Assembly (NCBI GenBank): GCA_009773565.1
Contig: WSXY01000017.1
Location: forward strand, 1 to 32,830
Direction of reading: 5' to 3'
Length of the DNA: 32,830 bases
From: Actinomycetota bacterium
GTDB lineage: Bacteria; Actinomycetota; Coriobacteriia; Anaerosomatales; Anaerosomataceae
Shown here: positions 1,120-31,244 of the stretch, one piece after another
Position numbering within the stretch: the first letter of the stretch is position 1
How the letters are laid out: every line of letters begins with the position of its first letter
Notes under the pieces: generated by a model
Seen by the model: the letters and a program-made list of their open reading frames with translations, nothing else
What the model was told of the DNA's origin: nothing
The model's database searches: none
Program-made: the position numbers and the translations under genes

Positions 1120-2181
1120 CTACGACGCGACGAGCCTCCGACCTATCTCCAGCGCCGCCTGGGCGCTTCGCGCAAAACCGTCTGCGCCTACTCGTTTCCA
1201 CAGTGTTGGCGCGGTGTTGAACGTGTAGCCCCCGACGAGTACCTTCACGTCACTCGTGCGCTCATCGGTACGCAGCATGCGGATGATCTCAGCGACTTCC
1301 CTGATGTGGTACGACATGGTGGCCGAGAGTGCGAGAACATCGGCTTGACGCTCCGCCGTGGTCTCTACGATGGAGGCTGCAGGCATGTTCGCACCCAGGT
1401 AGTGCGTGTTCCATTTGTCCATCTCGAAAAAGTCAGTGACCATGCGGAGCCCCATTTCGTGCAGCTCCTCCCCAACACACGCTGCCACGAGCATCCGGTC
1501 CTTGATCTCTGCAGTGAATATCTCGCCATAGAGCTGCGACATTACAAGCTCTGTGATTGCCGTTGCGCAGTGCTCTTGAGCGACCGAGATGCGGTTGAGT
1601 TGCCAGAGCCGGCCCAGTTCGAGCTGCGCCGGTTGGAACACGTGGGTGTACACGTCGCGGACGGGCGTGCCGGAACTGACGGCATCAAGGATTGAGCGTG
1701 ATGCCCCATGTCGGTCGCCGCTAAGCGCGGCACCGAGATACCTGATGGCCAGAGCGCTTAGTGGCTGGTCGGGAGTGATGTACGTCGGGATGGCCACATC
1801 CACGGTGCTCAGCGCATCGAGGGATCGGTTGATCACAGCGGTCGATTGGACTGCGGTCTCGGTGTCCAACTCATTTGCGATTGCATCGCGAACATCCTCA
1901 AGGCTGCAGCTAAGCCACTCTGCCGGCAGCGAGAGGTTCTCAAACAGGACCTTTACCCACCTGACATAGTCGTCATAGAGTGCTTGCTCGCCTGCCCAAA
2001 GGGCCGAGGCAAGGAACTGGATGTGATACCTCGTGTCTTTGATAGCGTTCAGGTACTGAGGCTCACTGAAGGACTCCCGGAGACCCGGCCAACGCCTCCA
2101 CTGAAGCTGGAGTGCCGACTCCGCAATCCGATTGACCGAAGCGATCAGAGTCTCACTCGCGTGTACAGATGCTTCTCGCAT
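1120..2181 (-). CDS. Cobalamin-binding protein with CarH-type photoreceptor motifs
   Basis: This 353-residue protein has three parts. An N-terminal helical region (about 1-130) is unrecognised. A four-helix cobalamin cap (about 140-225) carries W193, then nine residues, then E203-H204, which is the Wx9EH signature known from the adenosylcobalamin photoreceptor CarH. A Rossmann-like B12-binding domain (about 228-350) has the base-off motif ELHEMG at 239-244, with His241 the expected lower cobalt ligand, plus the GANMP, LSATMS and VGGYTFN segments. It has no MerR-type DNA-binding domain, so it should act through a partner. The likely partner is the histidine kinase encoded 113 bases upstream on the same strand. 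The start has a good AGGAG site. B12 binding is well supported; light or redox sensing is inferred from motifs alone. It could also sense cobalamin or a methyl-transfer state. Confidence 0.88.
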   Translation of the reverse strand: MREASVHASETLIASVNRIAESALQLQWRRWPGLRESFSEPQYLNAIKDTRYHIQFLASALWAGEQALYDDYVRWVKVLFENLSLPAEWLSCSLEDVRDAIANELDTETAVQSTAVINRSLDALSTVDVAIPTYITPDQPLSALAIRYLGAALSGDRHGASRSILDAVSSGTPVRDVYTHVFQPAQLELGRLWQLNRISVAQEHCATAITELVMSQLYGEIFTAEIKDRMLVAACVGEELHEMGLRMVTDFFEMDKWNTHYLGANMPAASIVETTAERQADVLALSATMSYHIREVAEIIRMLRTDERTSDVKVLVGGYTFNTAPTLWKRVGADGFARSAQAALEIGRRLVAS

Positions 2182-2294
2182 CGAACTCCTCCCGACGGGT
2201 GTCGTGGGTAGAACCCCGCTATTTGCGCCCTATGTGCGGCGATGAAGCCCCGGGCCGCCCAGGAGACGGCAGCCCTGAACCTGACATGGCGGCT

Positions 2295-4466
2295 CTAGGA
2301 CGACGTCGACCCGGGGTCGTCTTGAGGGGTCTGCAGGTTTCGAGAGACCACCGCTGAGAAGACGGAGCCAGCACCGAGGTGACTGGATACTTCGATATGA
2401 CCTCCGAGAAGCTCAGCCAGGCGGTTCCCGATTGCCAGGCCCAGGCCGGCGCCTTCCGGCTTGACGCCGCCCACCCGGGATACCTGATGAAACTGCTCCA
2501 TAATCTTGGATGTTTCGGATTCGGCAATCCCGCAGCCCGTGTCGGTGACCGTGAGCCGCAAGAAAAGCGGATCGGAGTCATCGATGCTCACTACGACGGA
2601 TCCTTCATCGGTGAACTTGACGGCGTTTCCGACGAGGTTGAGCATGATTTGTCGTAACTTGGCCTCGTCGGTCGTGATGGTAATCGGATGTCCTGGCGTA
2701 CTTGCGCACAAGGAGAGCCCGCGTTCTTCCGCGAGGACGCTCATGGTGTCCACGACTGCGCTTACAAGCAGGCATGCATCCACTTCGGCGCATTCGACCT
2801 TCGCAACACGCGCTTCGATGCGCGCCAGGTCGAGAATCTCCGAGACCAGATCCAAGAGATGACGACCCGATGACTCCACCATTTTAAGTTGTGTCGTCTG
2901 TTCGTCGTTGAGCGGACCGGTAAGGCCGCGCAGCATCACACCGCTGAATCCGATGATTGAGTTGAGCGGGGTACGGAGCTCATGACTCATGTTGCGCATG
3001 AACTGGTCTTTGACCTGGCTGGCATTCTCCAGGTCAGCTACTACCTTCACCAGCTCCGCGGTTCGTTCAGCGACCACGTTCTCAAGGTCAACCTTCTGCT
3101 TCTCGGTATCGAGAAGCAGTCTTTCTCGCTCCGCTCGAAGGCGGAGCGCCTCAATGCCGTTGCCGATGCTCGCGACAAGTTGCACAACGAGAGCGGTCTC
3201 CTCCTGATCGAATCGGTTGATCTCGTCAGCGTAGAGGGCGATCGCACCAAACCGTCGTGCGCCAGCATCGATCGGAAGCGATGCAGTCGAGCGCAGCCCG
3301 AAGGCCAGGGCTTTTTCGCGCCACGGGGCCAGGCGCGGGTCGTGGGCGATATCGCGAGAGACCGTTGATTCACCGGTGCGGATCGCAGTTCCGACGGGCC
3401 CCTGTCCCAGAGGCGTATCGGACCATGCGATATTCAGGTCCGCCGCGTAGCCGGATGCCTCCCCGCACGCATGGACGATCCTCACGCTACGATCTTGATC
3501 GTCGACAGCCTCGCCAATCCATACCAGGGTGTACTCGCCCTTCTCGGCGGCCAATCGGCATACGGCAGCGAGAAGCGCCTCTTCGGTTTCGGCATCGGCG
3601 ATTGCACGGCGGCACTCGCTGAGCATATTCAATACGCGGTTCGAACGTGTCAGCCTCGCATCATTCGCACCAAGTTCCGCATACACCATTACCAGGGGTC
3701 TCGAAACGGCCGTTCGGAAGATTCCCACAAGAACGAGAGTGAAGCCAATAGGCTGGGCCAGATGGCCCATGATGTTAAGCAAGCCGTAGATATCGACGTA
3801 CAGCGTCAAGAAAAGCTCGGACGCGACGAACGCAGCAATCGCCAGGAGCGTCATATTAACGACGAGGCGATCGATTCTGTCGCGGCGCTGCCATATGAGG
3901 ATGCCGGCAACACATAGCACTCCAATGACCGCGTATTCGCTCCAGACCTTGAAGCGCGTCAATCCCGTTCCGGGGATGAAGGCGGTCGGAAAGGTGTGCC
4001 AGACAACGATTGATAGTGCAAGTACGATCGAAGGCAATCCGGCGATGGCCGCAGCGATGCCCATACGCGCGCGGCGTCCCACAAAGAACGGCGCGGCAAA
4101 CAGAGTCGCGGCCAGAAGGTATCGGCTGAGAATCCACAACTGAGTCGCTGGATTCGGGTCGCCCGCCGTTAGTGGAGGCGTGAGAACGCCAATGCCCCTA
4201 TAGGCGAGAATGTGTAGAACAATAACTGCCGCAAGCGGCCCCATCCCCGCTCCTAGCACGACCAGGAAACCGTTCGTCGCCTGTTTCCTGGTCGACCATG
4301 CGACGAGTGATACCGCAATAGCAATCGTCGTCACGAACAACTCAACAGCGGTATGGAACAGGAGATAATTCCATTGACCAAGCAACCAGGCGCCGGCCAC
4401 AGTCCCGACCGACAGGGTTGCGTACAGTAGAGCGGTCATAAGCCGGCTTGGTTGTATGCGGCGCAT
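2295..4466 (-). CDS. Membrane sensor histidine kinase (MASE3-GAF-HisKA-HATPase)
   Basis: This 723-residue protein opens with about eight membrane helices (about 10-260) resembling the MASE3 sensor domain. A GAF domain (about 286-440), a coiled-coil linker (about 445-490), a HisKA domain with phospho-acceptor His495 in NMSHELRTPLN, and a HATPase domain follow. The HATPase shows the N box (LVGNAVKF), DTGCGIAE and GAGLGLAI. It should autophosphorylate on histidine in response to a membrane or cytosolic ligand. I start at 4466 because GGGGAGGT lies 8 bases upstream; a start at 4493 would place that site inside the gene. No response regulator is adjacent. The next gene downstream encodes a cobalamin-binding protein, probably cotranscribed, which may be its accessory sensor. 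The signal is unknown. Confidence 0.92.
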   Translation of the reverse strand: MRRIQPSRLMTALLYATLSVGTVAGAWLLGQWNYLLFHTAVELFVTTIAIAVSLVAWSTRKQATNGFLVVLGAGMGPLAAVIVLHILAYRGIGVLTPPLTAGDPNPATQLWILSRYLLAATLFAAPFFVGRRARMGIAAAIAGLPSIVLALSIVVWHTFPTAFIPGTGLTRFKVWSEYAVIGVLCVAGILIWQRRDRIDRLVVNMTLLAIAAFVASELFLTLYVDIYGLLNIMGHLAQPIGFTLVLVGIFRTAVSRPLVMVYAELGANDARLTRSNRVLNMLSECRRAIADAETEEALLAAVCRLAAEKGEYTLVWIGEAVDDQDRSVRIVHACGEASGYAADLNIAWSDTPLGQGPVGTAIRTGESTVSRDIAHDPRLAPWREKALAFGLRSTASLPIDAGARRFGAIALYADEINRFDQEETALVVQLVASIGNGIEALRLRAERERLLLDTEKQKVDLENVVAERTAELVKVVADLENASQVKDQFMRNMSHELRTPLNSIIGFSGVMLRGLTGPLNDEQTTQLKMVESSGRHLLDLVSEILDLARIEARVAKVECAEVDACLLVSAVVDTMSVLAEERGLSLCASTPGHPITITTDEAKLRQIMLNLVGNAVKFTDEGSVVVSIDDSDPLFLRLTVTDTGCGIAESETSKIMEQFHQVSRVGGVKPEGAGLGLAIGNRLAELLGGHIEVSSHLGAGSVFSAVVSRNLQTPQDDPGSTSS

Positions 4467-4582
4467 ATAGGAATACCTCCCCGGAGCTCGCATCCAGTCA
4501 GAAACGATTTTGCAGGCGTGCCGTTCACGAGCGTTCTAGAGACAGAAGTATAGTCCCAGGACGCCGGTCAAGGCGATACGTG

Positions 4583-6339: not shown

Positions 6340-7290
6340 CTAGTCGTCGGTTGCCGTATGACACCTGACGCAGTACATCGGGCCGTGGCACTCAATGCAG
6401 GCGGCCGCGCCGCTCTTCTCCACTGCATCGGGGTGCTGCGAGACCCAGGGCCCTCGCTTCGTGTCGTACCCTCCGTGGTGACACATGCTGCAGAACTGAA
6501 CCCCGCCTGCGTGGCATTTCGTGCAGGTGCTTCGGTTCTTCGCGGCAATCACACCATGGCCAGTGGCGCCCTCTGCCCATGTGGGCGGATGCGGCATTTC
6601 GAGTCCGTGGCAAGTGCGGCAGGTGGTTTCTTCGTGACACATCAGGCACTCGGGTTGATCCGCCTTTGCATTCTTCCCGTGGGCAGCCTGCCAGTTCGAT
6701 GGCGCATGCGACGCGGGACGCTTATCGAAGGATGCGGGATGACAGGTGTTGCAGGTGCCGGACGCCTTCGGCTGAGCTGCTTGGCCATGACAGGTGAAGC
6801 ACTGGCTCATGAGAAGCAGGGGTCTGTCGGCCGCGGGGTCGGGGTGTCCGGTCCACAGGTGACACGAAACGCACGACTTGTTGCGCTGCGCGTGTTCCGA
6901 GTGCTTGATGAGCGTTCCGTAGCGCATGGTGATCTCACGGCCGAGGTCGTGGCATTGGAGGCAGGTCTCGTCGGGGACGGCTGTCGGGGTTCTGCCGGTC
7001 CCACCTGACACGTGCGCGCCCAGGTCGCGGCCCAGCAGGCCCCCGCGCTCCCAGAGGGTGACCGGAAGCTGATACCAGGGCCGGGGTGTCTCGTGGCATT
7101 TCGAGCAGGCAACCCGGGTGTGCGATGAGGTTTTCCAGGAAGCGACGGCAGGCTTCATCTCGTGGCACGCGTTGCAGAGATCTGGGGAGGCTGAGACGCG
7201 GTCGATGGCAAAACCGAGCGCCATGATCGCGGCCAGGGTCGCAAGTGCGATCCAGCCGACATGAAGGGCTGCGCGCAACCGACTTTTCAT
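6340..7290 (-). CDS. Membrane-anchored dodecahaem cytochrome c
   Basis: This 316-residue protein has one N-terminal membrane helix (about 9-28) and then twelve CxxCH haem c motifs, the first being CNACH right after the anchor. An anchored first haem followed by more haems recalls NapC/NrfH quinol dehydrogenases, but those have four or five haems, so this is a larger relative or a convergent design. It should sit outside the membrane and pass electrons. No CxxCK motif or other catalytic signature is present. Haem spacing is roughly one per 25 residues, with paired motifs separated by six to ten residues. It is divergent from the main cytochrome operon across a 348-base region that carries a perfect palindrome. 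The start has only a weak GGGG site. Identity as a multihaem cytochrome is certain; its donor and acceptor are not. Confidence 0.93.
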   Translation of the reverse strand: MKSRLRAALHVGWIALATLAAIMALGFAIDRVSASPDLCNACHEMKPAVASWKTSSHTRVACSKCHETPRPWYQLPVTLWERGGLLGRDLGAHVSGGTGRTPTAVPDETCLQCHDLGREITMRYGTLIKHSEHAQRNKSCVSCHLWTGHPDPAADRPLLLMSQCFTCHGQAAQPKASGTCNTCHPASFDKRPASHAPSNWQAAHGKNAKADQPECLMCHEETTCRTCHGLEMPHPPTWAEGATGHGVIAAKNRSTCTKCHAGGVQFCSMCHHGGYDTKRGPWVSQHPDAVEKSGAAACIECHGPMYCVRCHTATDD

Positions 7291-7638
7291 CGGGTGCCCC
7301 GGAGCCGTGTGTGCGCTTGTTGGGTATCAACCGTACGGTTGCACATAAACCCATCCCAGCACTATGGCCCGGCGAGTGGCGCGCAGAGCCGACCAATACT
7401 GAACATGAACCTACTGACAGCACCACAGGTACGTCAAGGTCATGTTGTACCGACAAAGCTCGTTTGCGGGGGGCGCTAACGGAACCTTAACAGTACCCCA
7501 ATCCTGCAACAAACTCCTGAAGCTCTGGCCTGGCGATACTCTCGTCAGGTACTCGCAGATTCTCCCAGCAGTCCGCGCACCGGCAGCGATAGGACTCGAA
7601 TGCTTCACACGATTCACACGACCGGCAGGAGAGAGAGT
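7291..7638. promoter_or_regulatory. Divergent intergenic region of the cytochrome cluster
   Basis: A 348-base gene-free stretch between the divergent 12-haem and tetrahaem cytochrome genes. It must carry promoters in both directions. I find a perfect 14-base palindrome at 7328-7341 but no -35/-10 pair good enough to assert. The region is somewhat AT-richer than its neighbours. Confidence 0.6.
7328..7341. promoter_or_regulatory. Perfect 14-base palindrome, candidate operator
   Basis: CAACCGTACGGTTG is identical to its reverse complement. It lies 38 bases upstream of the start codon of the minus-strand 12-haem cytochrome gene and about 300 bases before the plus-strand operon. The symmetry suits a dimeric repressor or activator. 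PhoB-type regulators usually bind direct repeats, so the cluster's own regulators are not the obvious ligands. Confidence 0.45.
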
Positions 7639-8361
7639 ATGGCTGTATCGCTGTGGGGTTGGCCCGAGCGTATCGCCCGGAGTCCGCTGGTACGGGCGCT
7701 TCTCGCGAGCGCGATTCTGACGCTCACGATGTTCATCTTATTGCCAGTAGTGCCCGCCATCGCCGGGCAGGCGTCCACGGGCAAGCTTCTCTTCTACCCG
7801 TGCACGGACTGTCATCCGGTGACCGTGGACGAGGTGACGGGTAAGCCGTCACACCCGATTCCCATCGACTTCAAAGGCCACGGAATCGTTCTCGAGGGAC
7901 ACGACGTGCTCGGCAAGGACGAAGCGGCGTGCCTCACGTGTCATGACGACTCGGAGCACAACCCCGGGCTGCTTCGCGCCGTCGACGGGACGCGCATCGA
8001 TGTGAAGACGGGCGACATAGCGCGCCTCTGTCAGAAGTGTCACTTCGAGAAGTACAACCAGTTCAAGCAGGGGACGCACGGTAAGCACCTGGCCAGCTGC
8101 GTCGCCGCCGGCTGTCACGACCCGCACACGCCTCAGTACATCTACGTAGGTCCGCTCGCTCCCTTCCTGGGGACGGGCTTCCAGATCAAGGCCGTCGGGC
8201 AGGAGCGCGAGCCGTTCAGGCCGATCATGCCGCCGCCCCTTCCGCCCGCAACGGTCACGCCGTTGTGGTACCAGATCGTCGCGGGTGTTGGCTTGTTTCT
8301 CGTGCTCGTCATCGTGGTCGGGCTGGTAAGACCGGCCGTCGTTGAAAGGTTGAAGCGATGA
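7639..8361 (+). CDS. Tetrahaem membrane cytochrome c, first gene of the respiratory operon
   Basis: This 240-residue protein has an N-terminal membrane helix or uncleaved signal (about 17-43), an exoplasmic haem domain and a C-terminal membrane helix (about 210-232). Haem motifs are CTDCH, CLTCH, CQKCH and CVAAGCH, the last an expanded CX4CH type known from cytochrome c3. Two further His near the N-terminal haem and many in the domain can act as distal ligands. It should link the NrfD/ferredoxin subunits to the larger cytochromes. I start at 7639, where GGAGAGAG precedes the ATG; a start at 7600 lacks a site. It overlaps the ferredoxin gene by four bases (ATGA), so the two are translationally coupled. 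Confidence 0.9.
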   Translation: MAVSLWGWPERIARSPLVRALLASAILTLTMFILLPVVPAIAGQASTGKLLFYPCTDCHPVTVDEVTGKPSHPIPIDFKGHGIVLEGHDVLGKDEAACLTCHDDSEHNPGLLRAVDGTRIDVKTGDIARLCQKCHFEKYNQFKQGTHGKHLASCVAAGCHDPHTPQYIYVGPLAPFLGTGFQIKAVGQEREPFRPIMPPPLPPATVTPLWYQIVAGVGLFLVLVIVVGLVRPAVVERLKR

Positions 8362-9284
8362 GCGACACGTTGCACAACGATGTGCGTCCGGACAATGCGA
8401 CGGCGCCAGACGGAACGACCTTCTCGCGACGAAGCTTTCTCCAGGGAATAGGTGTCGCAGCCGGACTTGTAGCGGCCGGAGTCATCCCGGCCGTGCTCTC
8501 GGCCGCACCAACATCCGCCGAGGAAGCGACTGCTACAACGACAGCGGCGGTGCCCGGTGGCGGCGAGGATCCCATCGCGACGATCATCGAGGAGAACCGC
8601 GAACTCAACTACCCGGGCAAGCCGGTCTACTATGCTGACCTGGCCGGTCCCGAGAAGTGGGCGATGGTCATCGATACGAAAGCGTGTGTCGGCTGTCGGA
8701 AATGCGCCTTCGCGTGCGTGAAGGAGAACAACATCGGGCGCACGTCGGGCTTCACCTACATCCAGCTGCTTGAGATGGAGCCCGGGAAGTTGGATCTGGA
8801 TACGGCGGTTCTCGACTACGAGGAGGCCGGCAGACCGGACAAATGGTACCTGCCGGTCCAGTGCATGCAATGTGCGAACCCGCCCTGCGTCACCGGTTGT
8901 CCGGTCAAGGCCACCTGGAAAGAGCCCGACGGCATCGTCGTCGTCGACTACAACAAGTGCATCGGCTGTCGCAACTGCATGATCACGTGCCCGTACGGAG
9001 CGCGCCACTTCAACTGGGTGCACCCCGAGGTACCCGAGGCAGAGGTCAACCCCAAGGTCCCGCTTGCCGAGAAGGCGTGGACGCCCGAGAAGTGCACGTT
9101 CTGTGTGCAGAGAACGCGCAACGGCCAGACCACCGCGTGCGTTGAAGCGTGTCCGGTCGGGGCGAGGACCTTTGGAGACCTTAATGACCCGAACAGCGAC
9201 GTCTCGATTCTGCTCAAAACACGTCGCGTCTTCCGGCTTAAAGAAGAGCTCTCGACCGAACCGATGATCTGGTATGTGGGGTGA
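8358..9284 (+). CDS. Tat-exported ferredoxin subunit with four [4Fe-4S] clusters
   Basis: This 308-residue protein begins with a twin-arginine signal (SRRSFLQG at about 23-30, followed by a hydrophobic stretch to about 52), so it is folded in the cytoplasm and exported. Four cysteine groups follow: CVGCRKCAFAC, CMQCANPPCVTGC, CIGCRNCMITC and the split CTFC...CVEAC group. This is the arrangement of NrfC, DmsB and HybA-type subunits, each binding four [4Fe-4S] clusters. It carries electrons between the NrfD-type membrane subunit and cytochromes on the outer face. It overlaps both neighbours by a few bases, so the first three genes form a tight block. Function as an electron-transfer subunit is secure; no catalytic partner of the molybdopterin type is encoded nearby. 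Confidence 0.95.
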   Translation: MSDTLHNDVRPDNATAPDGTTFSRRSFLQGIGVAAGLVAAGVIPAVLSAAPTSAEEATATTTAAVPGGGEDPIATIIEENRELNYPGKPVYYADLAGPEKWAMVIDTKACVGCRKCAFACVKENNIGRTSGFTYIQLLEMEPGKLDLDTAVLDYEEAGRPDKWYLPVQCMQCANPPCVTGCPVKATWKEPDGIVVVDYNKCIGCRNCMITCPYGARHFNWVHPEVPEAEVNPKVPLAEKAWTPEKCTFCVQRTRNGQTTACVEACPVGARTFGDLNDPNSDVSILLKTRRVFRLKEELSTEPMIWYVG

Positions 9285-10552
9285 TGACGATGACTGAAGC
9301 TACGACCTCACAGCCCGGAATCAAGCGGTTCATCGGCATGGACTGGAACATCGGCGCACTCAAGAGCGCCGATCGTCGGTACTGGTCGTTCGTGGCCCTG
9401 CTCGGCATCCTGATCACGCTTGGTGTCATGGCGTGGATTCTCGTCATGACCAAGGGCGGAACCGTGATGGCCCAGCGGGATGGTTTCACATGGGGCATCT
9501 GGTTCGCGAACTACATGTTCTACGTCGGCCTCGCTGCCGGAGGTCTCGTGGTGTACGCGAGCGTGCACCTTTTCGGAGCCGAACAGTTCCGACCCCTGGC
9601 TCGCCTGGCCGTGCTCATGGCTGGTTGTCTGACGATGATAGCCGTGCTCGGTGACCTCACTGACCTGGTGCGGGTGTGGAGGATCTACTGGTTCGCGCTG
9701 ACGCCGAACCTCTCCGCGATCTTCGTCTACACGGGAAGCGCGGCCGGAATCTATATGGTCATCTGCTTCGTCGACCTCTGGATTCTGATCACCGGCAAGG
9801 GTGGCGAGAAGCTCGCGTACCGGATGACACTGATCGCTCTCCCATTGGCCATCTACCTTCACACGACGACAGCGTTCGTGCTCGCCCTCAACAAGTCTCG
9901 CGAGTTGTGGAGCACGGCGGTCATGGTGCCCATCTTCCTGACATCGGCCGTGGCCTCAGGCGTAGCACTCCTTCTGATAGTCGCGTACATCATGCAGCGG
10001 TTCCACGTACTCGAATTCAAGCCGAGCATGTTCCGGAGCCTGTCGACGCTGCTTGCGACCGTGATGATCTTCGACCTGTTCCTGCTTGTCGCCGAGATTG
10101 CCTTCGTCTACTGGCCTTCGTCCGCCAAGATCGGGCATACGCTGCGGTTCTCGGAGTTCCTGACCGGCCCGTACGCAGGGATCTTCCTGCCGGTCCTCAT
10201 ACTCGGAGGCACAGCCTTCGCGCTGCTTTCGCGGCGCAAGACGCGGCACATCCCCGCCGTGCAGGTCACTGCGTCCGCACTCTACGTCGTGGCGATCTTC
10301 TTCAAGCGCTACACCCTCATGTCGATGGGTTTTGCGATCGGTACGCTCGGGCAGCCGCAGGCGCCGTACTTTCCGAGTCTCGTCGAAGGGCTTCTCGCGC
10401 TGGGACTTCTCGCACTGGCGGTGCTCTTCGTGACGCTTGCTGCAAAGGTCCTGCCGTTGCGGGTTCCTGAACACGAGCACGGTGAAGAGGTCGGTGCGCC
10501 GCACGCCGTCGCGTCGGGAGATCCGGCTCTGGAGTCTGGGGCCGCGCTGTGA
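9281..10552 (+). CDS. NrfD/PsrC-type quinone-interacting membrane subunit
   Basis: A protein of about 420 residues with eight to ten hydrophobic helices starting near residue 28. The opening, with FTWGIWFANYMFYVGLAAGG at about 68-87, is typical of the NrfD/HybB/QrcD superfamily, which oxidises or reduces quinones and pairs with four-cluster ferredoxins. The C-terminal tail is soluble and Glu/His-rich. GTG 9281 overlaps the ferredoxin stop; ATG 9284 or ATG 9290 may be the real start, the last having GGGG at the best spacing. The next gene overlaps by four bases. With its neighbours it forms the quinone end of the pathway. Direction of electron flow cannot be read from sequence. Confidence 0.93.
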   Translation: MMTMTEATTSQPGIKRFIGMDWNIGALKSADRRYWSFVALLGILITLGVMAWILVMTKGGTVMAQRDGFTWGIWFANYMFYVGLAAGGLVVYASVHLFGAEQFRPLARLAVLMAGCLTMIAVLGDLTDLVRVWRIYWFALTPNLSAIFVYTGSAAGIYMVICFVDLWILITGKGGEKLAYRMTLIALPLAIYLHTTTAFVLALNKSRELWSTAVMVPIFLTSAVASGVALLLIVAYIMQRFHVLEFKPSMFRSLSTLLATVMIFDLFLLVAEIAFVYWPSSAKIGHTLRFSEFLTGPYAGIFLPVLILGGTAFALLSRRKTRHIPAVQVTASALYVVAIFFKRYTLMSMGFAIGTLGQPQAPYFPSLVEGLLALGLLALAVLFVTLAAKVLPLRVPEHEHGEEVGAPHAVASGDPALESGAAL

Positions 10553-11547
10553 GCACCGTCGTCCCGGGCAAGCGAAGCCGAATCATCGCGATCGCGGTCG
10601 TCGCAGTTGTTCTCATCGCAGTGACTGCAGTTGCGGTGGCGCTTATCGCCACCTCGCGGCCTGCATTCTTCGAGCGCTATCAGGGGTTGGAGCGGCGTCA
10701 CACGATGCTGGCGTCCTCCGGTCATTCGGCGGTCGAGTGCGTTGTCTGCCACACAGATCCGGCTGCGACGGTTGGCGCGAGCGCGGCGCGGGTTGGCGAG
10801 TTCTACGCCAGCCTGGTGTCCACGTCGACCGACCTGAGGTTCGTGAAGTTCTCGCCACCAACCAACAAGGCGTGCCTCAAATGCCATCTCTACGCGTGGA
10901 GTTCCGACGCGTCGAGAACCGCCGAAGTGCCGCATCCCGCGCATATGCGCGTGGCGAGCGAGACGCGCGCGTGCGTGTCATGTCACAAGTGGGTCGCGCA
11001 CGAGGAGGCCTACCAGGCGAAGCACAAGACGATGCCCTTGAGCGGCGTGTGCGTCTCGTTCGGGTGCCACGTCGGCACGGCGAAGCGCGACGAGTGCGGT
11101 TACTGCCACCATGCACTTGCGCAGGATCAGACCGCATGGAAGACCGGCCATCCGGATGCCGTGCGGTTGATCGGGCCGAACGCCTGCATGCAGTGCCACA
11201 AGCAGTCGCAGTGCAGCGAGTGCCACACCACCGGCAAGGCTACCGACCTGCCATCCAGCGTCCCGACCCTTGGCGTGTCCGTCGAGGCGCAGCACGTGAA
11301 GGCGACGTGGGTCTCGCAGCACGGCAGCGTGGCGCTCAAGAACGCGGCAGTGTGCATGAGTTGCCACATCTCGGATGGTGAATGCCTTGACTGTCACGCC
11401 CAAAGACCGACGTTCCACGGGCTGAAATCCACATGGCTGATGCAGCACCAGCCACTGGGGAAGAAAGCGGATCTCCCGCGCTGCCTGACGTGCCATGAGC
11501 AGAAGTGGTGCGACGAGTGCCACGATCAGTTCAAGGAGACGAGTTAG
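10549..11547 (+). CDS. Anchored undecahaem cytochrome c, tandem paralogue 1
   Basis: This 332-residue protein has one N-terminal membrane helix (about 11-34) and eleven haem motifs: ten CxxCH and one expanded CVSFGCH (CX4CH, 11050-11070). After the anchor comes a signature shared with the next two genes: an aromatic-RY segment, a Ser-x-His before the first haem, an (E/A)FY(A/S) segment, a PTN-like turn before the second haem, and a proline-His-x-AH segment before the third. It is therefore the first of three tandem duplicates. GTG 10549 overlaps the NrfD stop by four bases. It should be held at the outer membrane face and conduct electrons. No catalytic motif is seen. Confidence 0.92.
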   Translation: MSTVVPGKRSRIIAIAVVAVVLIAVTAVAVALIATSRPAFFERYQGLERRHTMLASSGHSAVECVVCHTDPAATVGASAARVGEFYASLVSTSTDLRFVKFSPPTNKACLKCHLYAWSSDASRTAEVPHPAHMRVASETRACVSCHKWVAHEEAYQAKHKTMPLSGVCVSFGCHVGTAKRDECGYCHHALAQDQTAWKTGHPDAVRLIGPNACMQCHKQSQCSECHTTGKATDLPSSVPTLGVSVEAQHVKATWVSQHGSVALKNAAVCMSCHISDGECLDCHAQRPTFHGLKSTWLMQHQPLGKKADLPRCLTCHEQKWCDECHDQFKETS

Positions 11548-12333
11548 GTGGCTCGACCCGGGCCGATATTCAGGAAGTGGGCGTTCATCGCCGCAGCGGC
11601 GATCGTCGTCGTGCTGCTGGTGCTGCCGGTCTTCTCCACGCTCCAGCCGGGCTACTACGAGCGGTATCCGTCGCTGCAGGGCCGCATGGCCAACTGGCGT
11701 ACCTCCACGCACACCAAGATGCGGTGCGCCGACTGCCACGTCGATCCCGGAGCACTCGGATTCGTTGTGTTCGCGGCGAAGTCGGTGCCCGCGTTCTATT
11801 CGCAGCTGGTATTCGGGCCGACTCCGACGAACCTGCTGGGCGTCCCGTCGTCGGCTGCGTGCGAGAAGTGCCACACCATCAATCGTCAGGTTTCGCCAAA
11901 CGGCGACTTACTCATTCCTCATCGTGCGCATATCGAGGTCCTCGGTCTTCGGTGCGCGGTCTGTCACAAGGACCTCGTGCATTCTGAGAACCCTCAGGGT
12001 TTCAACAAGCCGGTGATGGCCACGTGCATGACGTGTCACGACGGCAAGCAGGCGAAGAACGCGTGCATCAACTGCCACACCCGGAAAGAAGTCCCGGTCA
12101 CGCATAAGCAGCGCGATTGGCTCGACGTCCACGGCACCAGGACCGACACGGTCGAATGCGGCACGTGCCACAGCTACCAGCCCGATTACTGCAACACGAC
12201 GTGTCACAAGCAGCTCCCGCCGTCGCACGCCGGGAGCTTCAGGCAGACGCACCCGCTCCGCATCAAGGTCAGGGGTACCAAGGGCTGCGACTTCTGCCAC
12301 GGCGGCGAGACGTTCTGCAAGGAGTGTCACTGA
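11548..12333 (+). CDS. Anchored nonahaem cytochrome c, tandem paralogue 2
   Basis: This 261-residue protein has an N-terminal membrane helix (about 10-30) and nine haem motifs: eight CxxCH and one CNTTCH (CX3CH, 12190-12207). The last motif, CKECH, ends the protein, so the haem-ligating His is the C-terminal residue. The N-terminal half matches its two neighbours (YYERY after the anchor, STHTKMRCADCH, AFYSQLV, IPHRAH). GTG 11548 directly follows the preceding stop codon, and the next ATG overlaps its own stop by one base. Same predicted location and conductive role as the flanking paralogues. Confidence 0.92.
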   Translation: MARPGPIFRKWAFIAAAAIVVVLLVLPVFSTLQPGYYERYPSLQGRMANWRTSTHTKMRCADCHVDPGALGFVVFAAKSVPAFYSQLVFGPTPTNLLGVPSSAACEKCHTINRQVSPNGDLLIPHRAHIEVLGLRCAVCHKDLVHSENPQGFNKPVMATCMTCHDGKQAKNACINCHTRKEVPVTHKQRDWLDVHGTRTDTVECGTCHSYQPDYCNTTCHKQLPPSHAGSFRQTHPLRIKVRGTKGCDFCHGGETFCKECH

Positions 12334-13169
12334 TGGCGACGCGACTTCGCCCCACGCCCCGCACTCTGCGGATGTTGGTGCGCATCGGGATCGCTCTCGT
12401 TGCGATCGCCGCGCTTGTCGTGGCGCCGGTGCTCTATGCCTCGCAGCCGAGTTTCCTCGCGCGCTACTCGAACCTGAGCGCTCCCTATAAGGCGTGGACC
12501 ACATCGACGCACAAGGATGTGGCGTGCGAGTCCTGTCACGTTCCACCGACCGTTGTGGCCCGTGCCGCATTCTCGGCCAGGATGCTTGGCGAGTACTACC
12601 TCTCGCTCGTGTCATCTTCGCGAGAACTGGACGTGCTGAGGCCTCCCACGAATGCGTCGTGCCAGCCGTGTCACGCCGACCTCGTCAGCGTGTCTCCCTC
12701 CGGCGATCTCAAGATCCCGCATCGCGCTCACGTCGATGTGCTCAAGATGTCGTGCGTGGAATGCCACGACTATGCGGTCCACGAGAAGAACGCTAAGGGC
12801 ACGCACGTGCCGCCCATGACGGCGTGTCTCACCTGTCATGACGGTAAGCGGGCCAAGAGCGCGTGTACGACGTGCCATACCGCGAAGGCGGCCCCCGACA
12901 CACACAAGGCGACCGACTGGGTCGTTGTCCACCCGCTGCAGCAGACAGGTGGCGAGTGCGCTAAGTGTCACGCGTGGACGAAGAACTGGTGCGCCGACTG
13001 CCACTTCAGGCGACCCGCGTCGCATTCGACCGACTGGCGCAAGAAGCACGCGACGGCCGTCAAGGGTCGGCGAAACTGCGAGGCCTGTCATCCCGCGAGC
13101 TTCTGTGTCCGGTGCCATGGCGTCGTGCCGCAGTTGAACTACAACCCGGCCACGAAACTCGTCAAGTAG
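12333..13169 (+). CDS. Anchored nonahaem cytochrome c, tandem paralogue 3
   Basis: This 278-residue protein has an N-terminal membrane helix (about 15-35) and nine canonical CxxCH motifs. It is closest to the preceding gene: both share the PSGDL or PNGDL plus IPHRAH segment and a TCLTCHDGK or TCMTCHDGK-like fourth haem followed within ten residues by a fifth. The reading frame is open further upstream, but ATG 12333 overlapping the previous stop (TGATG) is the natural start and puts the anchor at the N-terminus. A 34-base gap separates it from the response-regulator gene. Confidence 0.92.
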   Translation: MATRLRPTPRTLRMLVRIGIALVAIAALVVAPVLYASQPSFLARYSNLSAPYKAWTTSTHKDVACESCHVPPTVVARAAFSARMLGEYYLSLVSSSRELDVLRPPTNASCQPCHADLVSVSPSGDLKIPHRAHVDVLKMSCVECHDYAVHEKNAKGTHVPPMTACLTCHDGKRAKSACTTCHTAKAAPDTHKATDWVVVHPLQQTGGECAKCHAWTKNWCADCHFRRPASHSTDWRKKHATAVKGRRNCEACHPASFCVRCHGVVPQLNYNPATKLVK

Positions 13170-13203
13170 ATGCGACCCGTCCGATGCAGAGCATGAGCGA
13201 CCG

Positions 13204-13890
13204 ATGAGCACGCAACGCATTCTTGTCGTGGACGACGAGGAGTCGATTCTCAAAGTCGTCGAGTACGCGCTGGTGCAAGAGGGCTACGAAGTCCAGACCG
13301 CGCGCGATGCGATCACCGCCGAGCCACTCATCGCTCGCTATGCGCCGGCGCTCGTTATCCTCGACGTCATGCTTCCGGGGAAATCGGGACTTGAGATCGC
13401 GCGTGATCTGCGCGCCAGATCGGACATCCCGATCCTGATGCTGTCGGCCCGCACCGAGGAGGTCGACCGCATCCTCGGCCTGGAGTTTGGCGCCGACGAC
13501 TACGTCACGAAGCCGTTCTCGCCCCGCGAGCTCGTCAGTCGGGTGAAGGCTGTTCTTCGTCGGGCGGGCGGCTGCGCGGACGAGAGTGCGATCATCACCG
13601 TCGGCGATCTGCACGTGAACACGCTCTCCAGGTCGGTCGTACTCGGTGAAGCGCCCGTTGCACTCACGCGCACCGAGTACGACATCCTGCTCTTCTTGAT
13701 CAGGCACCCCGGCACAGCGTTTTCTCGGATGGCGATACTCGACGCGCTTTCCGATGTCGCGCCCATCGGTGATGAACGGGCAATTGACGTCCACATCCAC
13801 AACATCCGGGAGAAGCTGGAGCCTGACCCGAAGAATCCGACGTATATCCTCACGGTTCGCGGCTTTGGCTACCGGCTGAGGGAGTCGTAG
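13204..13890 (+). CDS. PhoB/OmpR-type response regulator inside the cytochrome operon
   Basis: This 228-residue protein has a receiver domain (1-118) with Asp10/Asp11, phospho-acceptor Asp54, Ser81 and Lys103, then a winged-helix DNA-binding domain (about 130-226) ending in the typical TVRGFGYRLRES. No kinase gene lies beside it in the operon. Its sequence is strikingly close to the regulator encoded at 17504-18187 on the other strand, including a long identical run covering EVDRILGLEFGADDYVTKPF and the DVHIHN recognition-helix region. The two may answer the same kinase or bind the same DNA. It lies between two cytochrome genes and 3 bases before the next start, so it probably controls its own operon. 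Confidence 0.95.
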   Translation: MSTQRILVVDDEESILKVVEYALVQEGYEVQTARDAITAEPLIARYAPALVILDVMLPGKSGLEIARDLRARSDIPILMLSARTEEVDRILGLEFGADDYVTKPFSPRELVSRVKAVLRRAGGCADESAIITVGDLHVNTLSRSVVLGEAPVALTRTEYDILLFLIRHPGTAFSRMAILDALSDVAPIGDERAIDVHIHNIREKLEPDPKNPTYILTVRGFGYRLRES

Positions 13891-13893
13891 GCC

Positions 13894-14862
13894 GTGGCGA
13901 GCGAGCGCAGGCGGTGGATCTTGCTTCTTGCGGCTGTGGCACTGCTTGCGGTCGTCTCCCTAGCCGCATTGGCAACGTCTGATTCAGTGGTAAGCCCGAC
14001 TCGCGCCTGGTCCGCATGGGCATGGCGGCTGCGCTACCGGGTGCTCCCCGTCGAGGACCGCAGTGTGCTTGCCGCGCTGCACCGAGATGCTTCGGCCGGA
14101 TCGCGCGGTCAGTGCGTCGCCTGTCACGGAGACCGGGCGCAATCAAACCTGCCGGTGCACCGCATCCATTTGCAGAGTGAGCTTCTCATGAGCTTGGCGT
14201 GTCCCGACTGCCATCAGCATGTCGATCTCGGATCGCGGACAAGCACGACGGCAGTCACGTGGGTTGACGTCGGATTCTGTCGCGAGTGCCATTCTGCGTT
14301 TCCTGCCGCGCCGCCAGGAGCTGATGGCCACGCTGGAGGGCTCGACTCGGATTGCGCCGGTTGTCATGTGGGCGCCCGAGCGGCCACGCACGCGCAACCC
14401 TACCTGCCGCGCGAGATCCCGGCGCCGGAGTGTAAGGGTTGTCATGGCGCGCGGGTGCTGCCGTGGACTCCTCGTCACGAGCAGGACGGGTGGCTCTCGG
14501 TTCACGGCACAGAGGCGCTTGGGGCAGGATCAGAGCGGTGTTTCGAATGCCACGACTTCGGGCTCAAGTTCTGCGATGAGTGCCACGCGAAGAAGCCGCC
14601 ATCGCACAGCCCGGTCGAGCAATGGCGGGCCAGCCACCCGGACAAGGCTCGTGCCGACACGCGGGTTTGCTATACGTGTCACAAGACCGGCTTCTGCAAG
14701 GGGTGCCACATCAACCATGAGGCTGGCTGGCTGAGCAAGCACCCGGCTTTCGTTGCGGAGCGGGGGACAGTGAGCTGTTCGGAGTGTCACAGCCAGTCCT
14801 CGTGCTCCTACTGCCATACGGCGGCCCTGGCGGGCTCGCCGCAGCCGACGGTCGCGCCGTAG
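13894..14862 (+). CDS. Anchored undecahaem cytochrome c
   Basis: This 322-residue protein has an N-terminal membrane helix (about 8-26) and eleven CxxCH motifs. Its N-terminal region does not carry the shared signature of the three tandem paralogues upstream, but its second half (KFCDECHAKKPPSHS, then WRASHP) resembles their C-terminal halves, for example WCADCHFRRPASHS in the 9-haem protein at 12333. It may be a distant member or a fusion of a different N-terminus to a common core. The GTG start follows the regulator stop by 3 bases. It is predicted to lie on the outer face and conduct electrons; no catalytic residues are recognised. Confidence 0.92.
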   Translation: MASERRRWILLLAAVALLAVVSLAALATSDSVVSPTRAWSAWAWRLRYRVLPVEDRSVLAALHRDASAGSRGQCVACHGDRAQSNLPVHRIHLQSELLMSLACPDCHQHVDLGSRTSTTAVTWVDVGFCRECHSAFPAAPPGADGHAGGLDSDCAGCHVGARAATHAQPYLPREIPAPECKGCHGARVLPWTPRHEQDGWLSVHGTEALGAGSERCFECHDFGLKFCDECHAKKPPSHSPVEQWRASHPDKARADTRVCYTCHKTGFCKGCHINHEAGWLSKHPAFVAERGTVSCSECHSQSSCSYCHTAALAGSPQPTVAP

Positions 14863-29372: not shown

Positions 29373-30317
29373 ATGGAGAAGCTGACTATCGTCGTGGCGC
29401 TTGGCGGAAACGCGCTGCTACGGCGTTCGGATCCGATGACCGCAGAGGCGCAGCGGGCGAATGTGAAGATCGCCGCCCAGTCGCTCGCGCCGCTTGCCGA
29501 GACGTGCAACCTCGTCGTCGCCCACGGCAACGGCCCGCAGGTTGGGCTGCTCGCGCTTCAGGCGGCGGCGTACACCGACGTGGAGCCGTATCCGCTCGAC
29601 GTCCTCGGCGCGCAGACGCAGGGCATGATCGCGTACATGGTCGAGCAGGAACTTGGCAACGTCATCCCATTCGAGAAGCACATCGCCACCCTGCTTACGA
29701 TGGTCGAGGTCGACCCCAAGGATCCGGCTTTCGATAACCCCACCAAGTTCGTCGGTCCTTCCTACGAGAAGGCAGCAGCCGACCTGCTCGCGGAGCAGAA
29801 GGGCTGGGTCTTCAAGCTCGATGGCGGGCAGTGGCGGCGCGTCGTTGCGTCGCCCGAGCCGAAGCGCATCTTCGAGATGGAGCCGATCCGCTGGCTTGTC
29901 GAGAAGGGCGCCGTCGTCATCTGCGCGGGCGGTGGCGGCATTCCCACTGTGTATCTGCCCGACGGCCAACGTACGCTCGTCGGTATCGAGGCCGTTATCG
30001 ACAAGGACCTGGCGAGCGAGCTTCTCGCGCGCGAACTCAACGCTGACCTCTACGTGATGGCGACAGACGCCGAGGGCGTTTGCCTCGACTGGGGGACATC
30101 GGAGCAGTGCCAGCTCGGTTGGGTGACTCCCGAGGAGCTTGAGAAGCACGAGTTCCCGGCAGGTTCGATGGGTCCGAAGGTCGAGGCCGCGTGCCGGTTC
30201 GTGAAGGCCACCGGCAAGCGCGCCGCTATCGGACGTCTCGCGGATATCGCCGCAATCGTCGCGGGTGACGCAGGCACCAACATCGTCGCAGAGGTCCCGG
30301 CGGAGCGCAGGCGCTAG
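29373..30317 (+). CDS. arcC: Carbamate kinase
   Basis: This 314-residue amino-acid-kinase-fold enzyme transfers the phosphate of carbamoyl phosphate to ADP, giving ATP, ammonia and CO2. Signatures include [12 protein letters not shown] near 7-18, [35 protein letters not shown] and [13 protein letters not shown] 29373 has AAGGGA upstream; a GTG at 29352 in the same frame is less likely. It follows arcA by 135 bases and ends six bases before the convergent ureohydrolase gene. Confidence 0.96.
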
Positions 30318-30323
30318 AAGCTC

Positions 30324-31244
30324 CTACGTTGCGGTGCGCCGGGTGAGGCCGGCCGCACTCTCCAGAACGAGCAGCGCCGCCAGTCGCACGGTGCGACCGT
30401 CGGCTGCATCTGCTGTCGCATCGATCTCGGTGATATCGATGCCGCGTACGCGCGTGTCGGACGCGAGCAGGAAGGTGAGTTGTCGCAGCTCGTCGGCGGT
30501 GATGCCGCCTGGTGCGGCTGACGGACACCCCGGTACCTCAGCGCGATCGCAGACGTCGATGTCGATGTCCACGAAGACGGGGCGGCCGCCATGACCCGCG
30601 ATTCGCAGCGCTTCCGCCACGATCTCGCTGAGGTCACGGCGGCGCAGCGACGCCCGCGGCACAACGGTGATGCCCAGCTCGCGCGCACGCGCCGCATAGG
30701 CGGCCGAGTTCGAGAAGTCGCCGATGCCGATCTGCACGACGTGCGCCCCGGGCAGGCCTGCCTCGATGAGCCGACGCACCGGCGAGCCGTTGGACTCGCC
30801 GTCACGCAGGTCGTGGTGCGCGTCGAGCGTGATGAGGCCCCACGCCTCGAGATGACCGGCTGCCACGCCGCGCATGAGCGGGAAGGTGACGGAGTTATCG
30901 CCGCCGATCGCAAGCACGAGTGAGAATCGCCAGGCGGCGCCTTGGGCCGTCGCCGAAACGCGTGCTTCGCCATCGGTCCCGTCCGGGTCAGCCACATCTC
31001 CGAGGTCGACGGCGTGTAGGGCCGCAACGTCAATGCCAGTGCTTGCGGAGTACGTCGAGAAGCGCCGCAGCGCGTCTCGCACTGCAGCAGGCGTCGCGTG
31101 CGCTCCGGTTGGCGTGATGGAGTTCACGTGCGCGGGTACGCCGAGGAAAGCGAGGTCACCCGCAGGTTGGCCGTCACCGACGGGGTTGAGCCACGTGGAG
31201 GCTCTCGGCCAGAGTGGGTCTTCGGGCAGTTTCACGGCAGTCAC
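30324..31244 (-). CDS. hutG: Ureohydrolase, probable formimidoylglutamase (HutG-like)
   Basis: This enzyme of about 306 residues belongs to the arginase superfamily, with the binuclear manganese motifs GGDNS, DAHHDLRDG and DIDIDVCDRAEVPG. The segment NGSPVRRLIEAGLPG after the second motif resembles actinobacterial formimidoylglutamases, and the divergent neighbour is histidine ammonia-lyase. It therefore probably hydrolyses N-formimidoylglutamate to glutamate and formamide, late in histidine degradation. Agmatinase or guanidinobutyrase activity cannot be excluded, and arginine deiminase genes are also close. The frame is open far upstream into hutH. GTG 31244 has GGGGTG upstream; ATG 31277 is an alternative. 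Confidence 0.85.
   Translation of the reverse strand: MTAVKLPEDPLWPRASTWLNPVGDGQPAGDLAFLGVPAHVNSITPTGAHATPAAVRDALRRFSTYSASTGIDVAALHAVDLGDVADPDGTDGEARVSATAQGAAWRFSLVLAIGGDNSVTFPLMRGVAAGHLEAWGLITLDAHHDLRDGESNGSPVRRLIEAGLPGAHVVQIGIGDFSNSAAYAARARELGITVVPRASLRRRDLSEIVAEALRIAGHGGRPVFVDIDIDVCDRAEVPGCPSAAPGGITADELRQLTFLLASDTRVRGIDITEIDATADAADGRTVRLAALLVLESAAGLTRRTAT

Follow-up and report, generated by a model that had tools for sequence, protein, structure and literature searches.

The window, by which we mean the whole 32,830-nucleotide stretch of DNA analysed, carries on its minus strand a histidine kinase gene followed on the same strand by the gene of a 353-aa B12-binding protein (Table 1). This minus-strand pair had been recognised in an earlier note on the same DNA, and it is indeed present, although the kinase start given there, position 4466, is an internal ATG of a frame that begins, in the same phase, at 4493. 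As had also been noticed, the kinase has no adjacent response regulator, its neighbourhood being made up of a SPFH/band-7 gene, located downstream of the pair on the opposite strand, and a tRNA-Ser gene upstream; no response regulator was identified for it. The kinase has its MASE3 domain and kinase core in common with the MASE3-PAS histidine kinases (NF047874), but differs from them in that a GAF domain replaces PAS, and it scored 288 of 560 bits, below the cut-off of that family. For the gene of the B12-binding protein, the comparison with a 69% identical orthologue gave a dN of 0.24, dS being about 2 and thus close to saturation, which indicates that it is under purifying selection and not decaying.

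Table 1. Features of the kinase and photocobilin-type genes in the window. Residue numbers of SasPcob are our own conversion from chain index to the published numbering, anchored on Trp61/Glu71/His72.
Feature	Position	Strand	Evidence or remark
MASE3-GAF-HisKA-HATPase orphan histidine kinase gene, 732 aa	2295..4493	-	
MASE3 membrane sensor domain of the kinase	3696..4373	-	PF17159, E 6e-62
GAF domain of the kinase (GAF_2)	3150..3590	-	PF13185, E 1e-18
HisKA and HATPase_c of the kinase	2349..3011	-	PF00512, PF02518
Gap from kinase stop to start of photocobilin-type gene, 113 bp	2182..2294	-	Minus strand without a terminator-like site
Photocobilin-type protein gene, 353 aa	1120..2181	-	Shine-Dalgarno GGGAGGAG at 2186-2193
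Predicted phycobiliprotein-like (photoglobin) domain, residues 1-128	1798..2181	-	PF00502, orthologue profile, AF2 fold
D49	2035..2037	-	Aligns with Asp270, which contacts biliverdin in SasPcob (AbPcob has His)
W75	1957..1959	-	Aligns with Trp296 of SasPcob
Four-helix B12-binding_2 part, residues 140-223, with Wx9EH at 193-204	1513..1764	-	PF02607
Rossmann B12-binding domain, residues 226-353, axial H241 in ExHxxG, GxxxP at 263-267	1123..1506	-	PF02310

Elsewhere in the window, a multihaem cytochrome cluster was found at 6340-14862, which also includes an OmpR-type regulator and, resembling NrfC/NrfD, a ferredoxin and a membrane subunit, and three tRNA-Ser genes (GGA, CGA, and TGA anticodons) lie on this one 33-kb contig at 6170-6262, 18394-18486 (+), and 4628-4717 (-).

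The C-terminal part of the 353-aa protein gave Pfam matches to B12-binding_2 (residues 147-217, PF02607, E 4e-12) and to B12-binding (residues 231-344, PF02310, E 1e-21), values at which a chance match can be discarded. Both of the motifs announced for it, Wx9EH and ExHxxG (the latter at residues 239-244), were present, and three of the four elements of the SignatureFinder light-responsive signature could be located (GxxW at 190-193, EH, and GxxxP); the fourth, GxxH, has E238 in place of the Gly, a residue that contacts through its main chain only. Relatives were recovered by an alignment-based scan of contigs, a single-sequence scan having given none, and W193, E203, H204, and H241 were invariant in all 75 full-length ones; the conservation of W193 and G190 was partly selected by the search pattern, whereas that of E203, H204, H241, and the globin residues described below was not. 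In structural comparisons, the best matches of the B12 part were photocobilins (Z 26.2, 26.0, and 25.6), compared with Z 22-24 for methyltransferase-type domains and about 20 for CarH. Neither a helix-turn-helix nor any other DNA-binding match was detected in the protein, again in agreement with the first reading.

It was in the N-terminal domain that the earlier reading failed, as these 130 residues had been taken as unrecognised and proposed as a kinase-contact domain, a role for which we found no support, the domain being predicted to be a phycobiliprotein-like globin of the bilin type. PF00502 (Phycobilisome) matched residues 3-122 at 22.8 bits, over the Pfam cut-off of 22.2, and a profile built from 12 orthologues matched phycocyanin (E 9e-9) as well as, in a second stretch, the C-terminal globin of photocobilins (i-E 6e-8 for 8j2y and 1.6e-5 for 8j2w). 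Because the fold comparison of the whole chain spanned the B12 part alone, the globin domain was predicted and compared separately. Its AF2 model (pLDDT 95.5) superposed on phycobilisome proteins (Z 17.6, 2.1 A over 127 residues), on the biliverdin-binding smURFP (Z 17.4), and on residues 225-345 of SasPcob (8j2w, Z 16.7). In the profile alignment, D49 fell on Asp270 of SasPcob and, independently, on the His published for AbPcob, and W75 fell on Trp296. Among the 75 full-length relatives, D49 was kept in 70, Y72 in 72, and W75 in all. The sole cysteine of the domain, C92, lies away from the motif; the CXRD cysteine is absent from it as it is from BBAG-2 (PMC10151467), and photocobilins hold their bilin non-covalently (Zhang et al. 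2024, PMC10979010).

Some variants of this architecture were encountered among the relatives. Locus L045 encodes a stand-alone B12-binding protein (2540-3172, minus strand), and the ORF just before it on that strand is helical and globin-like, so that the sensor may here be split in two; a similar stand-alone protein is found in L046 (6814-7515). In addition, a photocobilin homologue of 303 aa (L044, 6545-7456, genome G012) has most of its Rossmann part missing, either as a decaying copy or as an assembly error.

What distinguishes photocobilins in sequence was thus found in the 353-aa protein: a CarH-type AdoCbl domain (W-x9/10-EH, E/DxH), a fused globin, and the contact Asp and Trp, of which the Asp is not universal, AbPcob having His. 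We put at about 80% the probability that the protein is a photocobilin-type light sensor using AdoCbl. That it serves as a light or B12 input, as the earlier note had suggested, appears well supported, as its nearest solved relatives are photocobilins and the residues of AdoCbl photochemistry are kept; the photochemistry itself and the binding of a bilin are inferred.

The closest known systems are SasPcob and AbDPcob (PDB 8J2W, 8J2X, 8J2Y; PMC10979010), which likewise combine a B12 domain with W-x-EH and ExH and a phycobiliprotein-like globin, SasPcob having in addition the same biliverdin-contact Asp and Trp and being stand-alone as well. Unlike them, the protein has its globin at the N-terminus, lacks a fused output, and belongs to a host without a recognised heme oxygenase. 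With CarH/LitR (TtCarH, PDB 5C8D) it has in common the AdoCbl domain fold and the W/E/H/H residues but not the N-terminal MerR-type DNA-binding domain, the globin occupying that place; signalling by protein contact is presumed. Phycobiliproteins, BBAG-2, and photoglobins (PMC10151467) present the same globin fold and pocket Asp; here, in contrast, the globin is fused to a B12 domain and its bilin binding is putative. The globin-first order is already known and not new: photocobilins have been grouped by the N- or C-terminal position of their AdoCbl domain, the globin-first ones being one of three groups, in that case with predicted structures (Zhang et al. 2024, PMC10979010), and photoglobin-B12 fusions had been described before that.

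The genes next to the orthologues offered information on the likely output. In six genomes of the order (G008, G010, G016, G030, G039, and G042), a partner gene begins a few bases downstream of the photocobilin gene, stop and start codons sometimes overlapping, and the first ~130 residues of its product form a common domain without Pfam match, here called the A3 domain. This domain is fused to PAS-GGDEF in G010, G016, G030, and G039 (by Pfam) and in G042 (by its sequence), and to HisKA-HATPase in G008. It was present in exactly 6 of the 69 genomes of the order, all of them with a photocobilin (p = 8e-6 for the co-occurrence, kinship being ignored). In a wider set of 72 loci, the A3 domain was found directly downstream in 47, and a coil of pattern LNNELVNxQRELAKKNxELE within 900 bp downstream in 50, including 12 that lack the A3 domain and in which the coil runs into kinase or GGDEF modules. 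Altogether, one or both elements lie directly downstream in 59 of the 72 loci, the modules driven being GGDEF or HisKA; in three further loci, the coil or the domain occurs downstream in a divergent form, and in another the coil protein is encoded upstream. Since the coil accompanies photocobilins and is rare elsewhere (2 occurrences in 583,132 residues of ORFs), we regard it as a candidate docking element for the photocobilin. Output proteins combining the A3 domain with the NNELVNxQRELAKKN coil, such as those at L034 5478-6656 (-), L035 4413-5807 (-), and L038 7329-8708 (+) and those encoded downstream in L063-L142, could constitute a new family.

No such partner accompanies the photocobilin-type gene of the window: neither the A3 domain nor the NNELV coil was found in the window, the A3 domain was not found in the rest of its genome (G000) either, and the MASE3 kinase is itself devoid of the coil and partner domain typical of the usual output. 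In the closest orthologue, that of G008, the HisKA partner gene overlaps the photocobilin stop, and the SPFH gene comes only after it; the window has lost this HisKA gene, and its MASE3 kinase stands on the other side of the photocobilin. The simplest reading, taken purely from gene position, would be that the old partner was lost and that the MASE3 kinase is taking over. A survey of whether the pair is conserved, as the earlier note had proposed, spoke against conservation: only two full-length orthologues of the kinase exist in the 69 genomes, in G023 and G048, and both sit away from photocobilin genes, the former adjoining a SLAC1 gene in a genome in which no full-length photocobilin was found, the latter on a contig other than that of the photocobilin.

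Of the two-component light or B12 input suggested at first, the input protein stands, whereas the link to the kinase is only possible, as the kinase orthologues lie apart and those of the photocobilin are partnered otherwise. It is quite conceivable that the photocobilin does not talk to the MASE3 kinase at all, either because it was orphaned when its ancestral partner disappeared or because it acts on another protein in trans; the unrelated contexts of the kinase orthologues, the absence of the HisKA kinase found in G008, and the lack of the A3 domain in the genome would all fit, but the two genes lie on the same strand only 113 bp apart, no terminator being seen between them, and the kinase has neither a response regulator nor another obvious input partner. 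We regard the chances that the MASE3-GAF kinase is the output of the photocobilin as evenly balanced, the link being plausible but unproven because the adjacent partner protein of the relatives is missing here.

Regarding the chromophores, genes for a corrinoid adenosyltransferase and for a photolyase are present in the genome to which the window belongs, in favour of the light-sensor reading. The usual source of biliverdin is missing. Heme oxygenase PF01126 was detected in none of the 69 genomes of the order and in just 5 of 50 other genomes carrying the globin-first type, single absences being weak evidence because many of these genomes are drafts. The HugZ-type enzyme (TIGR04109) gave no match in the genome of the window. 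The model of HutW, involved in anaerobic heme degradation, gave matches below cut-off throughout the genomes of the order, as well as matches in each of the 14 controls, and these are thus uninformative beyond generic radical-SAM relatives. At 29921-30841 of its contig C11, the same genome has a radical-SAM frame that resembles HemN/HutW and contains two in-frame TGA codons; similar matches with in-frame TGA were seen in G008 and G023. The absence of heme oxygenase, together with the arginine deiminase, multihaem cytochromes, and NrfD-like genes of the window, fits a host that is a likely anaerobe.

As no heme oxygenase was found in the genome or in the order, the bilin may be absent. The protein could then be a sensor of AdoCbl levels or an AdoCbl-only light sensor whose bilin-free globin pocket acts as a structural corrin cap, an alternative to which we give a considerable, if minority, chance. 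Contact with the corrin could be the reason why W75 is kept, since Trp296 of SasPcob also bonds it, and AbPcob, in which His at the position of Asp270 of SasPcob is the substitution given for weak biliverdin binding, nevertheless senses light (PMC10979010). Against this, D49, the equivalent of the biliverdin-contact residue, is kept in most relatives, as mentioned above. Judged by its residues, the bilin pocket is kept despite the missing source. Either the organism scavenges the ligand or produces it by some other route, or it is contact with the corrin that preserves the pocket.

An enrichment of photolyase in the order genomes with a photocobilin was too weak to be relied on (7 of 12, against 17 of the 57 others, p = 0.06). 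In two records from Hermodarchaeota (Asgard; L094 1942-8199 and L100 1676-7897), a globin-first photocobilin lies by a Pyridox_ox_2 split-barrel gene, a photolyase, a FixC/geranylgeranyl-reductase-like gene, and a CrtI-family phytoene desaturase, possibly a light-response locus in Asgard archaea. Carotenoid genes are of the kind served by CarH-type sensors, and we count these neighbourhoods in favour of the light-sensor reading.

Finally, that the protein is the corrinoid protein of a methyltransferase system is highly improbable: its matches to the MtgC and MtbC models are weak (57 of 370 and 52 of 350 bits, far under the cut-offs), no methyltransferase gene or ORF is adjacent, and the light-type Trp, Glu, and His are invariant and a globin is fused.

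Returning to the photocobilin reading, we propose that AdoCbl, with H241 as its ligand and W193, E203, and H204 as its cap, would hold the protein as a head-to-tail dimer in the dark. Light would cleave the Co-C bond so that the adenosyl group leaves, and the ensuing change would alter the contacts with a signalling protein. The dark dimer, the cleavage of the Co-C bond by light, and the altered contacts have been shown for other photocobilins, stand-alone ones having been shown to act by protein contact. A linear tetrapyrrole, if held in the globin pocket by D49 and W75, would extend the response to red light. In the relatives, the output would be the downstream GGDEF or histidine-kinase protein, probably contacted via the NNELV coil, and here most likely the MASE3-GAF kinase, whose gene precedes that of the photocobilin on the minus strand and which would in turn act on some response regulator. 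A bolder and, as a whole, unlikely scenario would see in the globin-first photocobilins a widespread photosensory system of two genes, belonging to microbes mostly free of heme oxygenase. Their conserved pocket would hold a linear tetrapyrrole that is obtained or synthesised without the canonical enzyme, and the sensor would dock on a dedicated NNELV coil of exchangeable outputs, the membrane-bound MASE3 kinase having taken over in this organism.

In conclusion, these results would extend a photoreceptor type with two chromophores to actinobacteria of the Coriobacteriia group that have received little study and are probably anaerobic. They also raise two testable points: the identity of the tetrapyrrole, if there is one, in a bilin pocket that is conserved although the organisms lack heme oxygenase, and the possible role of a short coil, encoded beside the sensor gene, as the route from photocobilins to kinases and cyclic-di-GMP enzymes.
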